In this document: positions 12,034 through 25,870 of the stretch, one piece after another
How the letters are laid out: each line of letters opens with the position of its first letter
How positions within the stretch are numbered: position 1 is the first letter of the stretch
Virus record (IMG/VR): IMGVR_UViG_3300020454_000045
Coordinates: 1 to 31,052 of that record
Source: a virus
Direction: 5' to 3' (one strand)
DNA length: 31,052 bases
Notes under the pieces: model-generated
Databases searched by the model: none
Told to the model about the DNA's origin: nothing
Seen by the model: the letters and a program-made list of their open reading frames with translations, nothing else
Made by a program: the position numbers and the translations under genes

Positions 12034-13122
12034 ATGCCATTCAAAACAGAAATCCCAGTGACAACACAAGACCTTGTTACTTATCTAAAAGATAACTTCG
12101 GAGACGAAGTTGCTGTACCTCAATTAATGAATGCAGCAGATGAATTCAAATGCTCTCTCGCTACAGTTAAGAAGCGTTTGAAGACTTACAAAAAAGGTAT
12201 AGGTAAGTGGAACCTTACAGTACAAGAAGTACGTAAACAACTTGAGAAGACTTATGTTCAAGAACAGAAAGTATCTCTAGTACCACTCAAGGATGAGAAC
12301 TTTGTACCATTCGGTAACTTCAATGCAGTAAAGAAGATACTTAAGTCAGGTGCATTCTACCCAACATTCATTACAGGATTGTCAGGTAACGGTAAAACAT
12401 TCGGTGTAGAACAAGCGTGTGCTCAACTAAATAAAGAGTTAATACGTGTAAACATTACCATTGAAACAGACGAAGATGATCTTATTGGTGGGTTTCGTCT
12501 TGTTAACGGTGACACTGTTTGGCATAATGGACCCGTTATCGAAGCTTTGGAAAGGGGAACTGTCCTCCTTCTAGATGAAGTCGATCTAGCATCTAACAAG
12601 ATACTATGCTTACAAAGTATTCTTGAAGGTAAGGGAGTCTTCCTTAAGAAGATAGGTAGATACGTCCATCCTGCAAAAGGTTTCAACGTAATTGCTACAG
12701 CAAACACAAAGGGTAAAGGTTCTGACGATGGTAGATTCATCGGTACCAATGTTCTTAACGAAGCATTCCTTGAGAGATTTGCTATTACTCTAGAGCAAGA
12801 CTATCCATCACCTCAGACAGAGACAAAGATTCTTAACAAGATTTCTTCCAACAAACAGTTCTGTGAAAGACTTGCAAGTTGGGCAGACATTATCCGTAAG
12901 ACATTCAAGGATGGTGGAGTTGATGAAGTGATCTCTACACGTCGTCTTGTACACGTTGTGAGAGCATTTGATATCTTTGGTTCTAAAGAAACTGCTATCC
13001 AGTACAGCATCAACAGATTCGATGATGAGACAAAGCAAGCATTCCTTGAGTTGTATGACAAGATCGATGCTGATTTCGATGTTGCACCACCAACACCACT
13101 ATCAGATAATCCACAAGGTTGA
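12034..13122 (+). CDS. cobS: CobS-like AAA+ ATPase (MoxR family)
   Basis: 362 residues. AAA+ ATPase with Walker A GLSGNGKT at 115-122, Walker B VLLLDEVD at 177-184, sensor 1 ATANT at 221-225 and an arginine finger at R248 (ERFA). The ITIETDEDDLIGGF segment is typical of the CobS/MoxR clade. CobS is the ATPase of the aerobic cobaltochelatase CobNST, which puts cobalt into the corrin ring, and is a well known auxiliary gene of T4-like cyanophages. The N-terminal 80 residues look like a separate helical domain. The CobT-like vWA partner is immediately upstream. Confidence 0.88.
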   Translation: MPFKTEIPVTTQDLVTYLKDNFGDEVAVPQLMNAADEFKCSLATVKKRLKTYKKGIGKWNLTVQEVRKQLEKTYVQEQKVSLVPLKDENFVPFGNFNAVKKILKSGAFYPTFITGLSGNGKTFGVEQACAQLNKELIRVNITIETDEDDLIGGFRLVNGDTVWHNGPVIEALERGTVLLLDEVDLASNKILCLQSILEGKGVFLKKIGRYVHPAKGFNVIATANTKGKGSDDGRFIGTNVLNEAFLERFAITLEQDYPSPQTETKILNKISSNKQFCERLASWADIIRKTFKDGGVDEVISTRRLVHVVRAFDIFGSKETAIQYSINRFDDETKQAFLELYDKIDADFDVAPPTPLSDNPQG

Positions 13123-13147
13123 CTTCTGATTTAAAAAGAGTTATTAT

Positions 13148-13172
13148 AAGGGGGTTCAAAACCCCCTTTTTT
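13148..13172 (+). terminator. Strong terminator after cobS
   Basis: AAGGGGGTT / AACCCCCTT, a 9-bp perfect stem, closes a 3-base loop (CAA) and ends in a T-run of six. It lies 25 bases after the cobS stop and directly before the GTG at 13173, which argues for the later start of the next gene. Confidence 0.92.
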
Positions 13173-13487
13173 GTGGCATTCAAATATGATGAGGATAAAC
13201 TCCTCAGTGAAGTTGCAGACTACATATCGCAAACTTACCAACAGCATTATTCAAAAGGTAATGTTCAAACACTTGACCTGATAGATTCTGTTGGAGATGC
13301 AGAAGCATTTTGTAGATCGAACATTCTTAAATATGCTTCTCGATATGATCGTAAGGGTTCAGCGAGAAAAGATATTGTAAAAATTGTTCACTATGCTATA
13401 CTGTTATTGCATTTCAATGACAAGAAAGCAACCTCTAATCTAAACATCTCTGGTTCTACAGCATTTACTGTAGATTACGACAAATAA
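13173..13487 (+). CDS. DUF3310-like phage protein
   Basis: 104 residues from the GTG at 13173. The frame is open back to a TTG at 13119, but that start would place the strong terminator inside the gene. The core matches the DUF3310 pattern found in many phages: QHYSKGNVQTLDLI, then FCRSNILKYASRYDRKGS and a helix with KIVHYAILLL. The biochemical function of the family is not established. No clear ribosome binding site precedes either start. It lies just before gp45. Confidence 0.8.
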   Translation: MAFKYDEDKLLSEVADYISQTYQQHYSKGNVQTLDLIDSVGDAEAFCRSNILKYASRYDRKGSARKDIVKIVHYAILLLHFNDKKATSNLNISGSTAFTVDYDK

Positions 13488-20321: not shown

Positions 20322-20708
20322 ATGGCAGATACTAAAGTAGATAAACCGAAAGGTCCTATGGGTAAACTAAAAGAGTTTACTGAGGACAAAGAGGAACAAC
20401 TTGCTATCCTTAGTACATTTGTACGACTAGGTATTTTGGTCTGGTCTGGTGGGATACTAACATTAAATTATGTTACTATACCAGGTTGGGAACAAGATAA
20501 AATTGATCCAACTTTTATAGCTTCGGTCTTCACAGGAGTCACAGCTACTTTCGGCATTCAAGCGGGAGGTAAGAAGAAGAATGGTGATAGTAGTGGTGGA
20601 GCAAACATATCTAAGAAAGATATGGAGATGCTTATAGAGAAAGCATCACAAGCAGCACCAACACAAACAATTAAGTTAGAGGTTCCAGCAGTTAAAATTA
20701 CTTCTTAG
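20322..20708 (+). CDS. Two-span membrane protein
   Basis: 128 residues. A charged N-terminus (KLKEFTEDKEEQ) precedes two hydrophobic segments at about 32-53 (FVRLGILVWSGGILTLNYV) and 66-85 (FIASVFTGVTATFGIQ). The C-terminal 40 residues are polar with KKK. The size and two-span layout recall a holin, but no holin family is recognised. It opens a run of six small, mostly membrane-anchored genes. The leader TATATAAG...ACACACATTATG resembles those before the CobT-like gene and cobS. Confidence 0.82.
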   Translation: MADTKVDKPKGPMGKLKEFTEDKEEQLAILSTFVRLGILVWSGGILTLNYVTIPGWEQDKIDPTFIASVFTGVTATFGIQAGGKKKNGDSSGGANISKKDMEMLIEKASQAAPTQTIKLEVPAVKITS

Positions 20709-20710
20709 TT

Positions 20711-21358
20711 ATGGATCAGGATGAAGCAATGTTTGGGACAGAACCCAAACCAAAAAAGAAAAAGGTAAATCTCGTGAAGTACTTTGCTATCACAGCAGGA
20801 GCACTATTTGGTTTATCACATATAGGTATGATTGGTATGATGAGTAAAAAAAGTCAAGTACCAACTCCTAATATACCTGTAGGACCTTATACATCTTATG
20901 TTATTTCTGCAAACAAAGATGGATATAAGATCAGTTATACTGCAAACGATCCTAAGACTGCATATGTCACTAAGGATATTAAGACTAAGGGTGGATTCTT
21001 AGGACTTGCTACAGAGACAACTAAGGTTGCAGAAGAATACTTTATGGATGGTCAGACAAACCAAGGAGGACCTGTATCAAATCATAGGTCTTGGATAGAC
21101 TCACCACCTGGTTTAACTCCAAGTCAAGCACAAGAAATAAGTGCTGCTCGAAAAAGCGAAGCCTGTATTAAAGCAATCGGAAGTGCAGAAGGTACAGGTC
21201 GTCTTGTTGGTACAAGCGTTGGTGCGTCTGCTGCTCCTGCTCTGTCTGGTATCCCCTTTGTTGGTTGGGTTGCTGCTGGTTGGGTGGCAATGTTTGGCGG
21301 TAATCAGGGTGCTGAGATAGGTGGCAATATGGCAGAAGACCTAAATAAAAATTGTTAA
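20711..21358 (+). CDS. Membrane-anchored protein with a glycine-rich C-terminus
   Basis: 215 residues. A basic stretch PKPKKKKVN is followed by a membrane anchor at about 24-45 (YFAITAGALFGLSHIGMIGMM). A polar domain with many T and Y follows. Near the C-terminus lies a glycine/alanine-rich hydrophobic hairpin (LVGTSVGASAAPALSGIPFVGWVAAGWVAMFGG) that resembles a glycine zipper. It ends in NKNC. No family recognised. Confidence 0.82.
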   Translation: MDQDEAMFGTEPKPKKKKVNLVKYFAITAGALFGLSHIGMIGMMSKKSQVPTPNIPVGPYTSYVISANKDGYKISYTANDPKTAYVTKDIKTKGGFLGLATETTKVAEEYFMDGQTNQGGPVSNHRSWIDSPPGLTPSQAQEISAARKSEACIKAIGSAEGTGRLVGTSVGASAAPALSGIPFVGWVAAGWVAMFGGNQGAEIGGNMAEDLNKNC

Positions 21359-21371
21359 TGAATTTATTACT

Positions 21372-21638
21372 ATGCAGAAAATTGTAAATGGAATCGCTAT
21401 TGCAAGTGGTATTGTATCTCTCACCGTTGTTGGTGCTTTTGGTTACGTATTCATACGCAAGGATGCAATTATCGAAAACGTCAAAGGCAAAATAATGGAA
21501 TCAGTTATGCCTGACATTGGTGGAGGAGCACTTGAAAGTATAGTGGGTGGAGGATTATCTTTACCATCACCATCTAATCCTGTTGCATCACCAGATGAAC
21601 CTTCATCACCTATGTCACCAATACCATTAGGTTTCTAA
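21372..21638 (+). CDS. Single-span membrane protein with a proline-rich tail
   Basis: 88 residues. A membrane segment at about 5-28 (VNGIAIASGIVSLTVVGAFGYVFI) is followed by a short basic and acidic stretch and a proline/serine-rich tail (LPSPSNPVASPDEPSSPMSP). Such a tail suggests an extended spacer. CTAAATAAA at 21341-21349, in the end of the upstream gene, could be a late promoter. The stop TAA is followed at once by the GTG of the next gene. Confidence 0.78.
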   Translation: MQKIVNGIAIASGIVSLTVVGAFGYVFIRKDAIIENVKGKIMESVMPDIGGGALESIVGGGLSLPSPSNPVASPDEPSSPMSPIPLGF

Positions 21639-21875
21639 GTGGACTTTCAAAAGATCACTAGCACTGGTACCGCTATCGCTGTAGTGGGTACTGGTGCAGT
21701 TGTCGGTGGCAATGCTGTCGTCGATAATGTGACTAATGGTCCTGAGAAACGTGAGGAAAGGCAGATAGAAAAGATACGTCAAGTTGTTGCAGAAGAAATA
21801 TATAAACAGTTAGTGGAAGCCTTTCCAAAATCAACTGGTCAGGTGGACAAAGTTTATGTACCCAAGAAACAATGA
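21639..21875 (+). CDS. Small protein with one hydrophobic segment
   Basis: 78 residues from a GTG placed directly after the upstream TAA. An N-terminal glycine/valine-rich hydrophobic segment (TAIAVVGTGAVVGGNAVV, about 11-28) precedes a charged helix (EKREERQIEKIRQVVAEEIYKQLVE) and a basic end. No family recognised. The stop overlaps the next ATG (ATGA). Confidence 0.75.
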   Translation: MDFQKITSTGTAIAVVGTGAVVGGNAVVDNVTNGPEKREERQIEKIRQVVAEEIYKQLVEAFPKSTGQVDKVYVPKKQ

Positions 21876-22123
21876 CATTTTTAAAAGAACAAGTAAAAAG
21901 ATTTTTCACTACAGGTAAGTGGGCATTGAAGTTAATCTTCCTTGTAGTACTTGTTGAGTTAGGTATAGTTGTTGGTGCTATTGCAACTCAAGAGTTAGAT
22001 GAGAATGACAGTAATAATATCAAACATATATTATCGTTAGTTGCTACAAAGTCATTTGCTTTGTATGCTGCTGAGAAAGGATCAGCACCAGCAGACCCTT
22101 ATAAAAAACTTCGTGAGGAGTAA
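21872..22123 (+). CDS. Single-span membrane protein
   Basis: 83 residues. A basic N-terminus (KEQVKRFFTTGKW) precedes one clear membrane span at about 17-40 (ALKLIFLVVLVELGIVVGAIA). By the positive-inside rule the N-terminus would face the cytoplasm. The rest is polar. The stop TAA is followed immediately by the GTG of the next gene, the same TAAGTGGA junction as at 21636. Confidence 0.77.
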   Translation: MTFLKEQVKRFFTTGKWALKLIFLVVLVELGIVVGAIATQELDENDSNNIKHILSLVATKSFALYAAEKGSAPADPYKKLREE

Positions 22124-22981
22124 GTGGATCCCATTGAAATACCCCAGATTAATCTCAGGGGAACTTATAATATAAACGGACAGATAGTAACTATCCCAGA
22201 CATTAGACAGGTAGACAATAGGTTGTGGATACAAGAGACACCACACGCTATACCTATTGCTGTTCCTATTACTATACAAGTTGGAACTCCTGTTATTGAA
22301 ATGCCTGGTTGTGTCAAGGTAAACAAAGAGAATGCTAAAGAAAGAAATAGAAATAAACAATTAGTAAATGACGATCCAAAAGGTAATGTAGTTCTTTGTG
22401 ATGGAGGTATGCCATACTACGAACCACCCGACTATTCATCGAGTGGTTTAGAGTGGCAAACTGTCTATGGTGAGCCAGAGGAGATAGAAGAGGGTGTAGA
22501 GGTAGAACAACCAGTTCCACCGTCTCCAGAGGTTGAAGCACCTGAGACCCCTACAGGGTCAAAAGAAGAGGTTCCTTGTCCACCAATAAATGCAAGACGT
22601 ATTGGTGACAGGAACCAGAAAGGAGATGAACAAGTTAAAGAATATAAACTAACACCTGATGGATTGATCTGTGAAACGGTATGGGAACCTGTACCAGCAG
22701 TCGAACAATTCGTCCCATCAGCAGGACAAGTATCTACAACCGCAGTCATAGCAACTGTTGCTACGGCATCTGCCCTATTTGCAAAACCTCTAGCTGACCT
22801 GATTCTGAGGGTAGTGAAACCGATTTTGAAGAAGGCAATAGATTCTGGAAAAAAGAAACTAGGGGGTTCTGTTTACCATCCTTCTCAAAAGGAACTGAAG
22901 ACAAATCTTTATCGGAAGAAGAAGGGATTACCTGAGATTGATTATCAGAAGATGAAGAAGAAGAAGGATCAATCCACTTAG
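22124..22981 (+). CDS. Proline/acid-rich protein with a C-terminal membrane segment
   Basis: 285 residues from GTG. The N-terminal 90 residues look beta-rich (INLRGTYNINGQIVTIPD, then AIPIAVPITIQVG). The middle is rich in proline and glutamate (about 120-150). A hydrophobic segment at about 206-225 (TTAVIATVATASALFA) is followed by a strongly basic tail ending KKKK. The last 221 bases lie antisense to the end of the convergent gene on the - strand, and both frames stay open throughout. No family recognised. Confidence 0.8.
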   Translation: MDPIEIPQINLRGTYNINGQIVTIPDIRQVDNRLWIQETPHAIPIAVPITIQVGTPVIEMPGCVKVNKENAKERNRNKQLVNDDPKGNVVLCDGGMPYYEPPDYSSSGLEWQTVYGEPEEIEEGVEVEQPVPPSPEVEAPETPTGSKEEVPCPPINARRIGDRNQKGDEQVKEYKLTPDGLICETVWEPVPAVEQFVPSAGQVSTTAVIATVATASALFAKPLADLILRVVKPILKKAIDSGKKKLGGSVYHPSQKELKTNLYRKKKGLPEIDYQKMKKKKDQST

Positions 22982-24068
22982 GGCTAGGTATGTTATGACT
23001 ATGTGGTTGTAATTGACCACCTGGTGTGGTAACTACAACGTCAGCACACACAGCGAAGTATGGAGACTTTGGATGGAACATTATTCCCGCCTTTTTCAAT
23101 TCACCACAATTTTTTAATCTTGCGATCTCAAAGTCTAATCTCTTGTTGGCAAGGGCTTGTGCTTGCAAATCATTCTGTGCTTGTGCTGCTTCGTGACATT
23201 GCTGTTGTAGTTTCTTGTTAAGTGGTATGGATAGAGTAGCAGATAAACCAGCATTAAATGATTGGTTTGCAGACATATCAGTTCGTACAGGTTTATTCCA
23301 TAGAACATTACCTGGATTATCTGGTCTTCCATCGGGACCATTTACATCTACAGTGATCTCCATATCTTCACCATCAGGAAACCATCTAGTTCCATCTGCC
23401 TTTGTCCTTGTGTCATACCAAGACTCCCAAGGATAGTTTTTAACAGTAACTGTCTGTTGTGTAGTACGACCAGTGAAGTCGGTCATATCATATTGTGGTT
23501 CATTATAAAAATCGACCCAAGGATCTTTCCTTGAGTCTGCAAACTGGATGTATGGTGTAAGGTTGAACGTTGCACCTTGACATTGCACACCACCACCATA
23601 TGTGTTTGTTATATACGGACCTTGTAAAACTTGTATTGCCTGGTTGGTTACTGAGCCTGAAGAATTGGCAATCGGGTTTGCAGTAGCAGATACACCTCCA
23701 ACGTTTTCAGCACGTAAAGGTAAACATTGAACGCTGAGAACCGTTGCTATTACTGGGTAAATGTACTTGTTGTATCTGTGACGCTTCTTATAGTTGTGAC
23801 CCTTTGTATTATTGTCTGGTTGGTCATCCCAGGTCCTTGATAACTTTGAGTAAATTGGAACGGTTCCCCTTGGGTTGTCATAGTGAAGTTGTTCTGTGAA
23901 GAGAAGTCTAAGTTGTCGAACGAACTTGTTACCGACCCTGTTACGCTGACTCCGTTTGTCGAAGTGCTTAACGTTGACGGTGTTACTGTCACTGTTGATG
24001 TATTCACTGGTGGGTTGAGAGGTTGATTGTTGTTGGAAACCCCTGTCCCTGTCACTGCGTATTCCCAT
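22761..24068 (-). CDS. Exported protein with unclear start
   Basis: The frame is open for 435 residues from the only conventional start, ATG at 24068, but the first 95 or so overlap the neighbouring gene and look like shadow sequence. The convincing part begins near 23795 with a signal-like stretch (KKRHRYNK, then YIYPVIATVLSVQCLPLRA), then a polar domain with TYGGGVQCQ, WESWYDTR and WFPDGED, a helix (NDLQAQALANKRLDFEIARL), and a serine-rich tail. No ATG, GTG or TTG lies at the right place; ATT at 23762 or ATA at 23750 are candidates. The function is unknown. The 3' end overlaps the + strand gene by 221 bases. Confidence 0.68.
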   Translation of the reverse strand: MGIRSDRDRGFQQQSTSQPTSEYINSDSNTVNVKHFDKRSQRNRVGNKFVRQLRLLFTEQLHYDNPRGTVPIYSKLSRTWDDQPDNNTKGHNYKKRHRYNKYIYPVIATVLSVQCLPLRAENVGGVSATANPIANSSGSVTNQAIQVLQGPYITNTYGGGVQCQGATFNLTPYIQFADSRKDPWVDFYNEPQYDMTDFTGRTTQQTVTVKNYPWESWYDTRTKADGTRWFPDGEDMEITVDVNGPDGRPDNPGNVLWNKPVRTDMSANQSFNAGLSATLSIPLNKKLQQQCHEAAQAQNDLQAQALANKRLDFEIARLKNCGELKKAGIMFHPKSPYFAVCADVVVTTPGGQLQPHSHNIPSPKWIDPSSSSSSDNQSQVIPSSSDKDLSSVPFEKDGKQNPLVSFFQNLLPSSKSVSLPSESGQLEVLQIGQMP

Positions 24069-24229
24069 CCTGTACGATAATCTATACTGTTTATGGTCTC
24101 CGTCACTGTAGACTCAGTTTCCGTATGGGAAGTCATAGAGCCTTGTTGGAAATTCGGGACCACAGGCACCGCAAGGGTTCTCAATGGTACACCAAAGAAA
24201 CATAATAGTAGGAGTCCTATTCGTTTCAT
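23750..24229 (-). CDS. Secreted Ser/Thr-rich protein
   Basis: 159 residues. A signal peptide of about 20 residues (MKRIGLLLLCFFGVPLRTLA) is followed by a Ser/Thr/Asn-rich body with beta-like repeats (STVTVTPSTLSTSTNGVSVTGSV). No cysteine remains in the mature part. Composition resembles surface or fibre-like exported proteins. It starts 15 bases after the previous - strand gene. Its stop overlaps the likely signal-peptide region of the next gene in another frame. Function unknown. Confidence 0.82.
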   Translation of the reverse strand: MKRIGLLLLCFFGVPLRTLAVPVVPNFQQGSMTSHTETESTVTETINSIDYRTGWEYAVTGTGVSNNNQPLNPPVNTSTVTVTPSTLSTSTNGVSVTGSVTSSFDNLDFSSQNNFTMTTQGEPFQFTQSYQGPGMTNQTIIQRVTTIRSVTDTTSTFTQ

Positions 24230-24244
24230 ATTATATATAGGGGT

Positions 24245-24757
24245 TTAACGTATGGTAACTTCGGTGACAAATTGGCCAGTCGCTGTGGTTCCACTTCCAC
24301 CAGCTGTTAGTGCCATTGCTCCAGCAGTGCTGATTGTACCAGCAAGACTTCCAGCAGTACCAGGTGCTGTAGAAACGGTGTTACTGTAACCGTTTACGTC
24401 ACCTACATCAGCAGCAGTAGTTACAATAGCGTCACCAGTTGTTATGTTCTGTGTGAAGCTGTATGCGTTACCTTGGGTAGTCTGTGCTGTGTCAGGTAGT
24501 GCAAAAGTAGCAACTCCTGCTGTGCTGACTGCTGAGATACCACCTAGATTACTAGCAGCACTACCACCTGTCGGTGTAATAGTTGTGCTCACACCAGATC
24601 CACTGGTACTATATGAGTTCGCTGCTCTCGATACTGAAGTATAGCCTGCGTCAACTTGTAGTTGGACTGAACTTGTCAATTTATGAGTCAAATCGGCACG
24701 TGCTGCCAATGGACTCAACATTCCCAAAATACCAAAAGCGATGAATGCTTTTTTCAT
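24245..24757 (-). CDS. Secreted Gly/Ala/Thr-rich protein
   Basis: 170 residues. A clean signal peptide of 21 residues (KKAF, then a hydrophobic core, then ARA before DLTHK) precedes a body very rich in A, G, S and T (TPTGGSAASNLGGISAVSTAG and similar). No membrane anchor after the signal and no cysteine. Export through the host Sec pathway is likely. It is the first gene of the only - strand operon in the window, divergent from hsp20. Function unknown. Confidence 0.85.
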   Translation of the reverse strand: MKKAFIAFGILGMLSPLAARADLTHKLTSSVQLQVDAGYTSVSRAANSYSTSGSGVSTTITPTGGSAASNLGGISAVSTAGVATFALPDTAQTTQGNAYSFTQNITTGDAIVTTAADVGDVNGYSNTVSTAPGTAGSLAGTISTAGAMALTAGGSGTTATGQFVTEVTIR

Positions 24758-25396: not shown

Positions 25397-25870
25397 ATGA
25401 GTGATGTGAATTTTAGAAGGCATCGGGTGTTCAGAGAAACACCTGATGTCATTTTCTATGATATATCTGTTGAAGAATCTAATGCACAAGACTTAGTAGT
25501 ACATACTAATGCTGCTGTATCACCTCCAGATGATATGGTAGGTGCAAAACAATTCTACATACATCGCTATCAACAGGATCATAACCGTGTATTATCAGGT
25601 GAAAGAACTTTTGAACTTGTAAACTACAACTGGAAATGCCCATATCATATTGTGCATTTAAACATCTATAGTGGTGCTCTGGTAATACCTAGAGAAACAT
25701 TCCATAGATCAGTATCAGGAGAGACAGGTTCAATAGTAATTAATCAGGCAGAACGTTTTGAAGGATTCAATGCTGATCAAGAATTTATTCCTGTGTCTAC
25801 AGCAGAGAATCCAGAGTTGTATAAAATTCTCAAGCACGAGAAACCAGTTATACATACTTTAGGAGAGTAA
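25397..25870 (+). CDS. Cupin-like hypothetical protein
   Basis: 157 residues. The stretch FYIHRYQQDHNRVLSGERTFELV and the later ALVIPRETFHRSVSGETGSIVINQ look like the two halves of a cupin barrel, with histidines that could bind a metal (H56, H61 and H103 are candidates by eye). The assignment is by pattern, not by a known cyanophage function. It sits directly under the consensus promoter and palindrome. Confidence 0.72.
   Translation: MSDVNFRRHRVFRETPDVIFYDISVEESNAQDLVVHTNAAVSPPDDMVGAKQFYIHRYQQDHNRVLSGERTFELVNYNWKCPYHIVHLNIYSGALVIPRETFHRSVSGETGSIVINQAERFEGFNADQEFIPVSTAENPELYKILKHEKPVIHTLGE

Follow-up and report, generated by a model that had tools for sequence, protein, structure and literature searches.

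What does the block of small membrane and secreted proteins between regA and hsp20 do for a marine cyanophage? Few viruses are as abundant as marine cyanophages, and the lysis of their Prochlorococcus and Synechococcus hosts feeds the ocean carbon cycle; to our knowledge, neither the holin nor the outer-membrane lysis proteins of these phages have been identified. The block analyzed here lies in an IMG/VR record of 31,052 bases from a T4-like marine cyanophage (IMGVR_UViG_3300020454_000045, hereafter the window). Of the nine genes between regA and hsp20, six encode predicted membrane proteins and the other three code for proteins secreted via Sec. We favor the view that the block is a holin and outer-membrane-disruption (lysis) cassette of T4-like and T7-like marine cyanophages, comparable to but outside the Rz/Rz1 systems, a reading whose chances we put at about even. 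Among candidates for the machinery with which cyanophages of these two unrelated families breach the outer envelope of the host, it is the strongest to date.

Conservation of the block in T4-like cyanophages

Genes are designated here by the T4 gene cluster (T4-GC) numbers of Sullivan 2010, assigned via annotated relatives. All nine open reading frames (ORFs) were searched against PHROGs, Pfam and NCBIfam, and membrane spans and signal-type N-termini were predicted by hydropathy. All nine match PHROGs of unknown function (one labelled 'plasmid stability'), which indicates that they are real genes, as a first-pass annotation of the window had assumed, rather than chance ORFs. Pfam recognizes only DUF6450 (in 218) and DUF6322 (in 236), NCBIfam contributes nothing further, and no enzyme family was found in any of the three collections, in keeping with the lack of enzyme motifs noted earlier. 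The genes run 218, 219-like, 414, phrog_22018, phrog_3189 and 234 on one strand, facing 235, 236 and 237 on the other. Each of the six genes previously thought to carry membrane spans has at least one hydrophobic segment, that of 234 being weak and close to the C-terminus, ahead of a basic tail. Signal peptides had been proposed for the other three; those of 236 and 237 are N-terminal and of the cleavable type, while that of 235 is internal, lying behind a basic leader of approximately 100 residues.

Parts of this cassette have been described before. According to Sullivan 2010 (PMC3037559, Fig. S9), T4-GC 218, 219, 234, 235 and 237, often together with a plasmid stability gene, form a mobile cassette whose genes are all hypothetical and which 15 of 16 T4-like cyanophages carry, S-PM2 being the one without it; a functional reason for the clustering is suggested there. 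The grouping made in the first-pass annotation is therefore real but not new. That account concerns the same genes in T4-like cyanophages and likewise regards the cluster as kept for function, but it gives no function, overlap, signal peptides or podovirus link and attributes a role in mobility to the 'plasmid stability' gene. What is new here is the -1 dual coding of 235 and 236, the core shared with T7-like cyanopodoviruses, and the presence of the carriers on a published list of spanin-less phages.

In a survey of 243 sequences (the window plus related loci), the genes repeatedly stand in the order 218-414-(accessory)-234, with 235-236-237 facing them, and the six genes 218, 414, 234, 235, 236 and 237 lie within 6 kb in all 17 loci with full flanks. 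Independent variation among relatives, which would have spoken against a unit, is confined to the accessory genes 219, phrog_22018 and phrog_3189, which come and go. The block is also intact away from regA and hsp20 in P-HM2, Bellamy, S-SSM7, Sf-FR1 and S-CAM9; in P-SSM2 the 218/219 part stands some kilobases off from the remainder. The proteins 236 and 237 are paralogues, and the 237 profile matches 236 too in nearly every locus. Relatives of 235 were found in 406 phage records, compared with 506 for the neighboring hsp20, of which approximately 470 are cyanophage or marine. A genome scan returned no host homologue, all 10 of its matches carrying the phage module.

Several side observations accompany the survey. 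Cyanophage-type contigs with the module (L248-L257) are filed under unrelated genomes of the GTDB set (e.g., Nonlabens, Formosa, Lewinella and Chloroflexota), probably through binning or contamination, and in L255-L257 the DUF6450 gene stands directly ahead of 237-236-235. In one contig (L078) the 237-236 pair occurs twice, the additional copy (12305-13313) lying several kilobases from the first.

A hidden -1 overlap of 235 and 236

The open frame of 235 begins at an ATG at 24068, inside 236 and in the -1 frame relative to it, and the same relation holds in 216 of 217 intact T4-like pairs. The signal peptide of 235 (AxA, followed by EGVGG or ENVGG) lies exactly at the 3' end of 236, and a start codon nearby is usually absent; one exception, L084 (with L081 similar), has an ATG of its own for 235 after 236. 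Stop codons were counted in fixed windows for 72 T4-like representatives with less than 88% nucleotide identity, expectations being derived from synonymous shuffling. Over the last 54 codons of 236, the -1 frame contains 0 stops against 156.8 expected, a count that does not represent independent events because the representatives are related by descent. Controls remain near expectation (observed versus expected stops: +1 frame, 269 and 248; upstream part of 236, 65 and 62; paralogue 237, 191 and 192).

The tract without stops opens, in each of the two T4-like clades, at an in-frame ATG within a Trp codon of 236, and stops resume just upstream. This ATG lies approximately 105 codons before the end of 236 in clade 1, which includes the window, and 54-58 codons before it in clade 2, where a GGAG/GGTG-like ribosome site precedes it in many of the sequences inspected. 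The -1 peptide is also more basic than its shuffled counterparts, with a charge of +7.7 versus +3.3 over 54 codons and of +4.2 versus +0.8 over the last 15 codons, where the signal peptide starts (72/72 representatives). Since the -1 frame codes for the basic start of the signal peptide, the overlap is dual-coding. Fourfold-site variation in the overlap is somewhat lower than upstream (0.43-0.54 versus 0.53 in clade 1; 0.50 versus 0.62 in clade 2), which taken alone is weak evidence. The length of the leader varies, and thus it probably forms no conserved domain of its own.

Two other explanations of this arrangement were considered. A programmed -1 frameshift leading from 236 into 235 was dismissed, given that the tract starts at an in-frame ATG in a Trp codon and that stops reappear just upstream, and a non-canonical start of 235 near its signal peptide was rejected, as no shared codon occurs there and the frame is kept open further upstream.

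A core shared with T7-like cyanopodoviruses

Searches of DUF6450 with tblastn reached T7-like podoviruses, and four genes proved common to both phage families: the DUF6450 protein with two transmembrane (TM) segments, the secreted overlapping pair, and the Pro-rich protein with one TM segment. The T7-like loci contain DUF6450, a single gene of the 236/237 kind and one gene each resembling 234 and 235, in most cases between the tail fiber and the small terminase. The -1 overlap is present in all 59 intact T7-like pairs, and in 22 T7-like representatives the last 36 codons contain 0 stops in the -1 frame versus 29.4 expected (+1 control, 98 versus 79.8).

In P-SSP7 the core corresponds to genes 042-045 (AY939843), which match phrog_9426, DUF6450, phrog_650 and phrog_1755/848. 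These loci and the window thus share a homologous four-gene core and the -1 overlap, but the T7-like loci differ in that counterparts of 219 and 414 were not found, nor was 237 as a separate gene, and in that the 234 counterpart is shorter. Unlike in the window, the P-SSP7 core lies wholly on one strand; P-SCSP1u and P-RSP2 resemble the window in having their 234-like gene convergent to 235. The TM and SignalP notes of the P-SSP7 GenBank record are limited to hliP, psbA and 042-044, and P-SSP7_043, the DUF6450 homologue, bears the note '2 transmembrane regions'. The GenBank gene starts in SS120-1, S-TIP37 and P-SSP7 omit the leader and signal peptide of 235, and the conserved overlap corrects starts in several database records. 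In SS120-1 (L258, 5998-6314) the DUF6450 homologue is unannotated and spread over two overlapping frames, which may be a real break or a sequencing error.

The genes thus act as an envelope-directed unit, as first suggested, with a four-gene core across families; a joint structure of all nine proteins is unsupported.

Comparison with spanins and holins

In T7, the holin gene 17.5 stands just before the small terminase and the Rz/Rz1 genes just after it. The similar position of the core in most T7-like loci, together with the absence of recognized spanins from carrier phages, favors lysis among the functions offered in the first-pass annotation. A spanin survey (Kongari 2018, PMC6139136) found no spanin in P-SSP7, P-HM1, P-HM2, P-RSM4, P-SSM2, P-SSM4, P-SSM7, Syn1, Syn9, Syn19, Syn33, S-ShM2, S-SM1, S-SM2, S-SSM5 and S-SSM7, and proposed fragility of the host's outer membrane as the explanation of the gap in cyanophages. 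P-SSP7 carries the module and so, by Sullivan's count, do all 15 T4-like phages on this list; S-PM2, which is without the module, is likewise called spanin-less. The same survey noted that overlapping architecture is typical of spanins and that overlapping genes are liable to be miscalled, and suggested that an unrecognized spanin might be oriented N-out/C-in with its TM segment at the C-terminus, or might have an outer-membrane protein partner. The predicted topology of 234 has the former form.

Across the family, TAAATA, which we take to be a late motif of the T4 type, occurs more often than expected upstream of 237 (39 of 63 versus 10 expected) and of 218 (25 of 50 versus 8.2 expected). It is because of this enrichment, the T7-like position, the spanin-less list and the suggested N-out/C-in form of spanin that we favor reading the block as a holin with an outer-membrane-disruption complex.

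Similar to two-component spanins (lambda Rz/Rz1 and T7 18.5/18.7), the module has an overlapping membrane-directed gene pair (216/217 T4-like and 59/59 T7-like pairs; spanin genes are embedded, overlapped or adjacent), a Gram-negative envelope as its target and a place near the T7 lysis genes. It differs from them in the secreted partner, which has a site of the signal-peptidase-I type instead of a lipobox, and in the membrane partner, whose span is C-terminal and not N-terminal; no sequence similarity was found. None of 235, 236 and 237 is an outer-membrane lipoprotein of the o-spanin kind, and 234, with its C-terminal span and Pro-rich N-terminal part, is not the type II protein with an N-terminal span and periplasmic coiled coil that defines an i-spanin. 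The DUF6450 proteins have the form of short holins, being small, with two spans and a charged hydrophilic C-terminus in a ten-protein alignment, and resemble small two-TM phage holins in T7-like genome position as well; they differ in matching no holin family, and a lesion-forming role is a candidate only. As the lipobox and topology of spanins are not present and no holin family was matched, we claim membership in neither group.

Several findings weigh against a lysis cassette. No protein of the block matches a holin or spanin family, DUF6450 being found in Pfam and in PHROGs of unknown function only. No lipobox occurs in 235, 236 or 237, whose signal peptides close with AxA-type sites, and therefore these exported proteins are not lipoproteins. 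AlphaFold models were poor (predicted local distance difference test scores of 58.8 and 57.7) and Foldseek returned nothing significant, so the structural check proposed earlier did not help; sequence searches of the PDB gave weak or artefactual matches only, those of 236 being to designed repetitive proteins. In the window itself, the 110 bases upstream of 237 contain no TAAATA. The block of P-SCSP1u and P-RSP2 does not lie between the tail fiber and the small terminase in the manner of the other loci. Host lysis also occurs in phages without the module, namely S-PM2, Syn5 and, in the parts examined, S-CREM2 and S-SZBM1. Finally, P-SSP7 encodes outside the module a lipobox-like protein of 75 residues (PSSP7_020A, L346 14426-14653, annotated inside nrdJ), which could be an o-spanin or another small lipoprotein, and its existence weakens identification of the holin by elimination.

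Between the tail fiber and small terminase genes of Syn5 lies gp47 (L347 36392-36652), a protein with a span at its N-terminus and possibly a coiled coil; this fits a swap of one lysis system for another but proves nothing. It resembles an 84-residue protein before the small terminase in S-TIP37 (L259 6941-7195). A likeness of 236 to beta-barrel pores was weak (E ~2) and was not used.

Proposed mechanism

If the block is a lysis cassette, it would be expressed late in infection, when the DUF6450 protein would enter the inner membrane as the holin and Sec would export 235 and 236/237 to the periplasm. The C-terminal span may anchor 234 in the inner membrane, with its Pro-rich, Cys-bearing part outside and linked to the exported proteins. 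After the holin fires, an endolysin coded elsewhere would cut the wall, and the 234-235-236 assembly would then open or fuse the outer membrane, the task of Rz/Rz1 spanins in other phages. The start of 235 inside 236 would tie the two genes together.

Alternative explanations

The main rival is superinfection exclusion or envelope remodeling, in which the proteins would sit in membranes and periplasm to block the entry or DNA injection of competing phages, or stabilize the envelope until lysis. We regard this as unlikely, though a serious contender: the membrane and periplasmic composition suits it, the cassette is mobile and not universal, as is often the case for exclusion genes, and it is common to phages competing for the same hosts. 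However, neither Imm, Sp nor any other exclusion or defense family was matched in PHROGs and Pfam (PADLOC was not searched), the late-type motif upstream of both operons suits lysis better, and exclusion would not explain why two families retain the core so strongly or why it stands where it does in T7-like genomes.

That the proteins are virion components (minor tail or injection proteins) with misleading signal-peptide-like starts is improbable. The T7-like module does follow tail-fiber genes, and that of S-SSM7 adjoins gp9 and a tail-fiber-like gene, but Sec export would take the proteins out of the cytoplasm, where virions assemble. In Sullivan 2010 (PMC3037559), the five cluster genes are still hypothetical after virion proteomics of S-SM1, and Table 2 lists one virion protein among 12 genes in 15 genomes, apparently the class of the cluster genes; indirectly, the text implies that no more than one of the five encodes a virion protein. 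For a surface fiber, another role proposed in the first-pass annotation, no evidence was found. Slightly less probable still is a periplasmic or outer-membrane assembly serving infected-cell metabolism, e.g., by taking up nutrients or protecting membranes, comparable to the phage-coded PstS near some copies. While pstS, phoA, DUF680 or photosystem genes do stand beside some copies, these neighbors vary among phages and the block is constant; it also occurs in 38-kb podoviruses with few metabolic genes, and no transport or binding family was matched in PHROGs and Pfam.

Features of the block

Table 1. Genes and overlaps of the regA–hsp20 interval in the window
Feature	Position	Strand	Description	Evidence
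T4-GC 218, DUF6450 (phrog_2714)	20322..20708	+	Small inner-membrane protein, two predicted spans, charged C-terminus; holin candidate; core	Pfam 2.3e-34, PHROG
T4-GC 219-like (phrog_605)	20711..21358	+	Span at N-terminus, hydrophobic Gly-rich C-terminus; accessory	PHROG, hydropathy
T4-GC 414 (phrog_568), labelled 'plasmid stability'	21372..21638	+	N-terminal span, then Pro-rich tail; kept in T4-like block	
phrog_22018	21639..21875	+	Small, Gly-rich N-terminal span, GTG start; accessory	PHROG, hydropathy
phrog_3189	21872..22123	+	Small, single strong span; accessory	PHROG, hydropathy
T4-GC 234 (phrog_570)	22124..22981	+	N-terminal part rich in Pro and with four conserved Cys, span near C-terminus, Lys-rich tail; N-out/C-in predicted; core	41-sequence alignment, T7-like counterparts
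Convergent 3' overlap of 234/235	22761..22981	.	221 bases antisense; varies among relatives	
T4-GC 235 (phrog_848)	22761..24068	-	Basic leader 24068 to ~23769, signal peptide ~23768-23709, mature part ~23708-22761 with four invariant Cys; core	
Dual-coding stretch	23750..24068	-	3' part of 236 (frame 0) with leader and first half of signal peptide of 235 (frame -1)	
T4-GC 236 (DUF6322, phrog_650)	23750..24229	-	Signal peptide, Ser/Thr-rich beta protein; core; paralogue of 237	
T4-GC 237 (phrog_564)	24245..24757	-	Signal peptide, Ser/Thr/Gly-rich; in T4-like block	

The antisense overlap with 234 results from an extension at the C-terminus of 235, which only some of the relatives have. The 'plasmid stability' label is widespread in cyanophage records and has been taken as a sign of mobility or plasmid-like behavior; the relatives of 414 that carry it have no Pfam match, and the protein consists of a TM segment and a Pro-rich tail. 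The gene after hsp20 (25397-25870) matches phrog_9052, labelled hemagglutinin (1.5e-83), and has no Pfam match.

Implications

A genetic system exists for the carrier phages S-TIP37 and Syn9 (PMC8776855), and the candidate module offers a specific, testable alternative to the fragile host membrane as the explanation of missing spanins (PMC6139136). Tentatively, and with somewhat less confidence than in the lysis reading itself, we suggest that at least two cyanophage families may breach the outer membrane by a common route that needs no spanin, in which a holin of a new family and a Cys-bearing secreted complex, with 235 started inside 236, would take the place of Rz/Rz1 across much of the virosphere of marine cyanophages.

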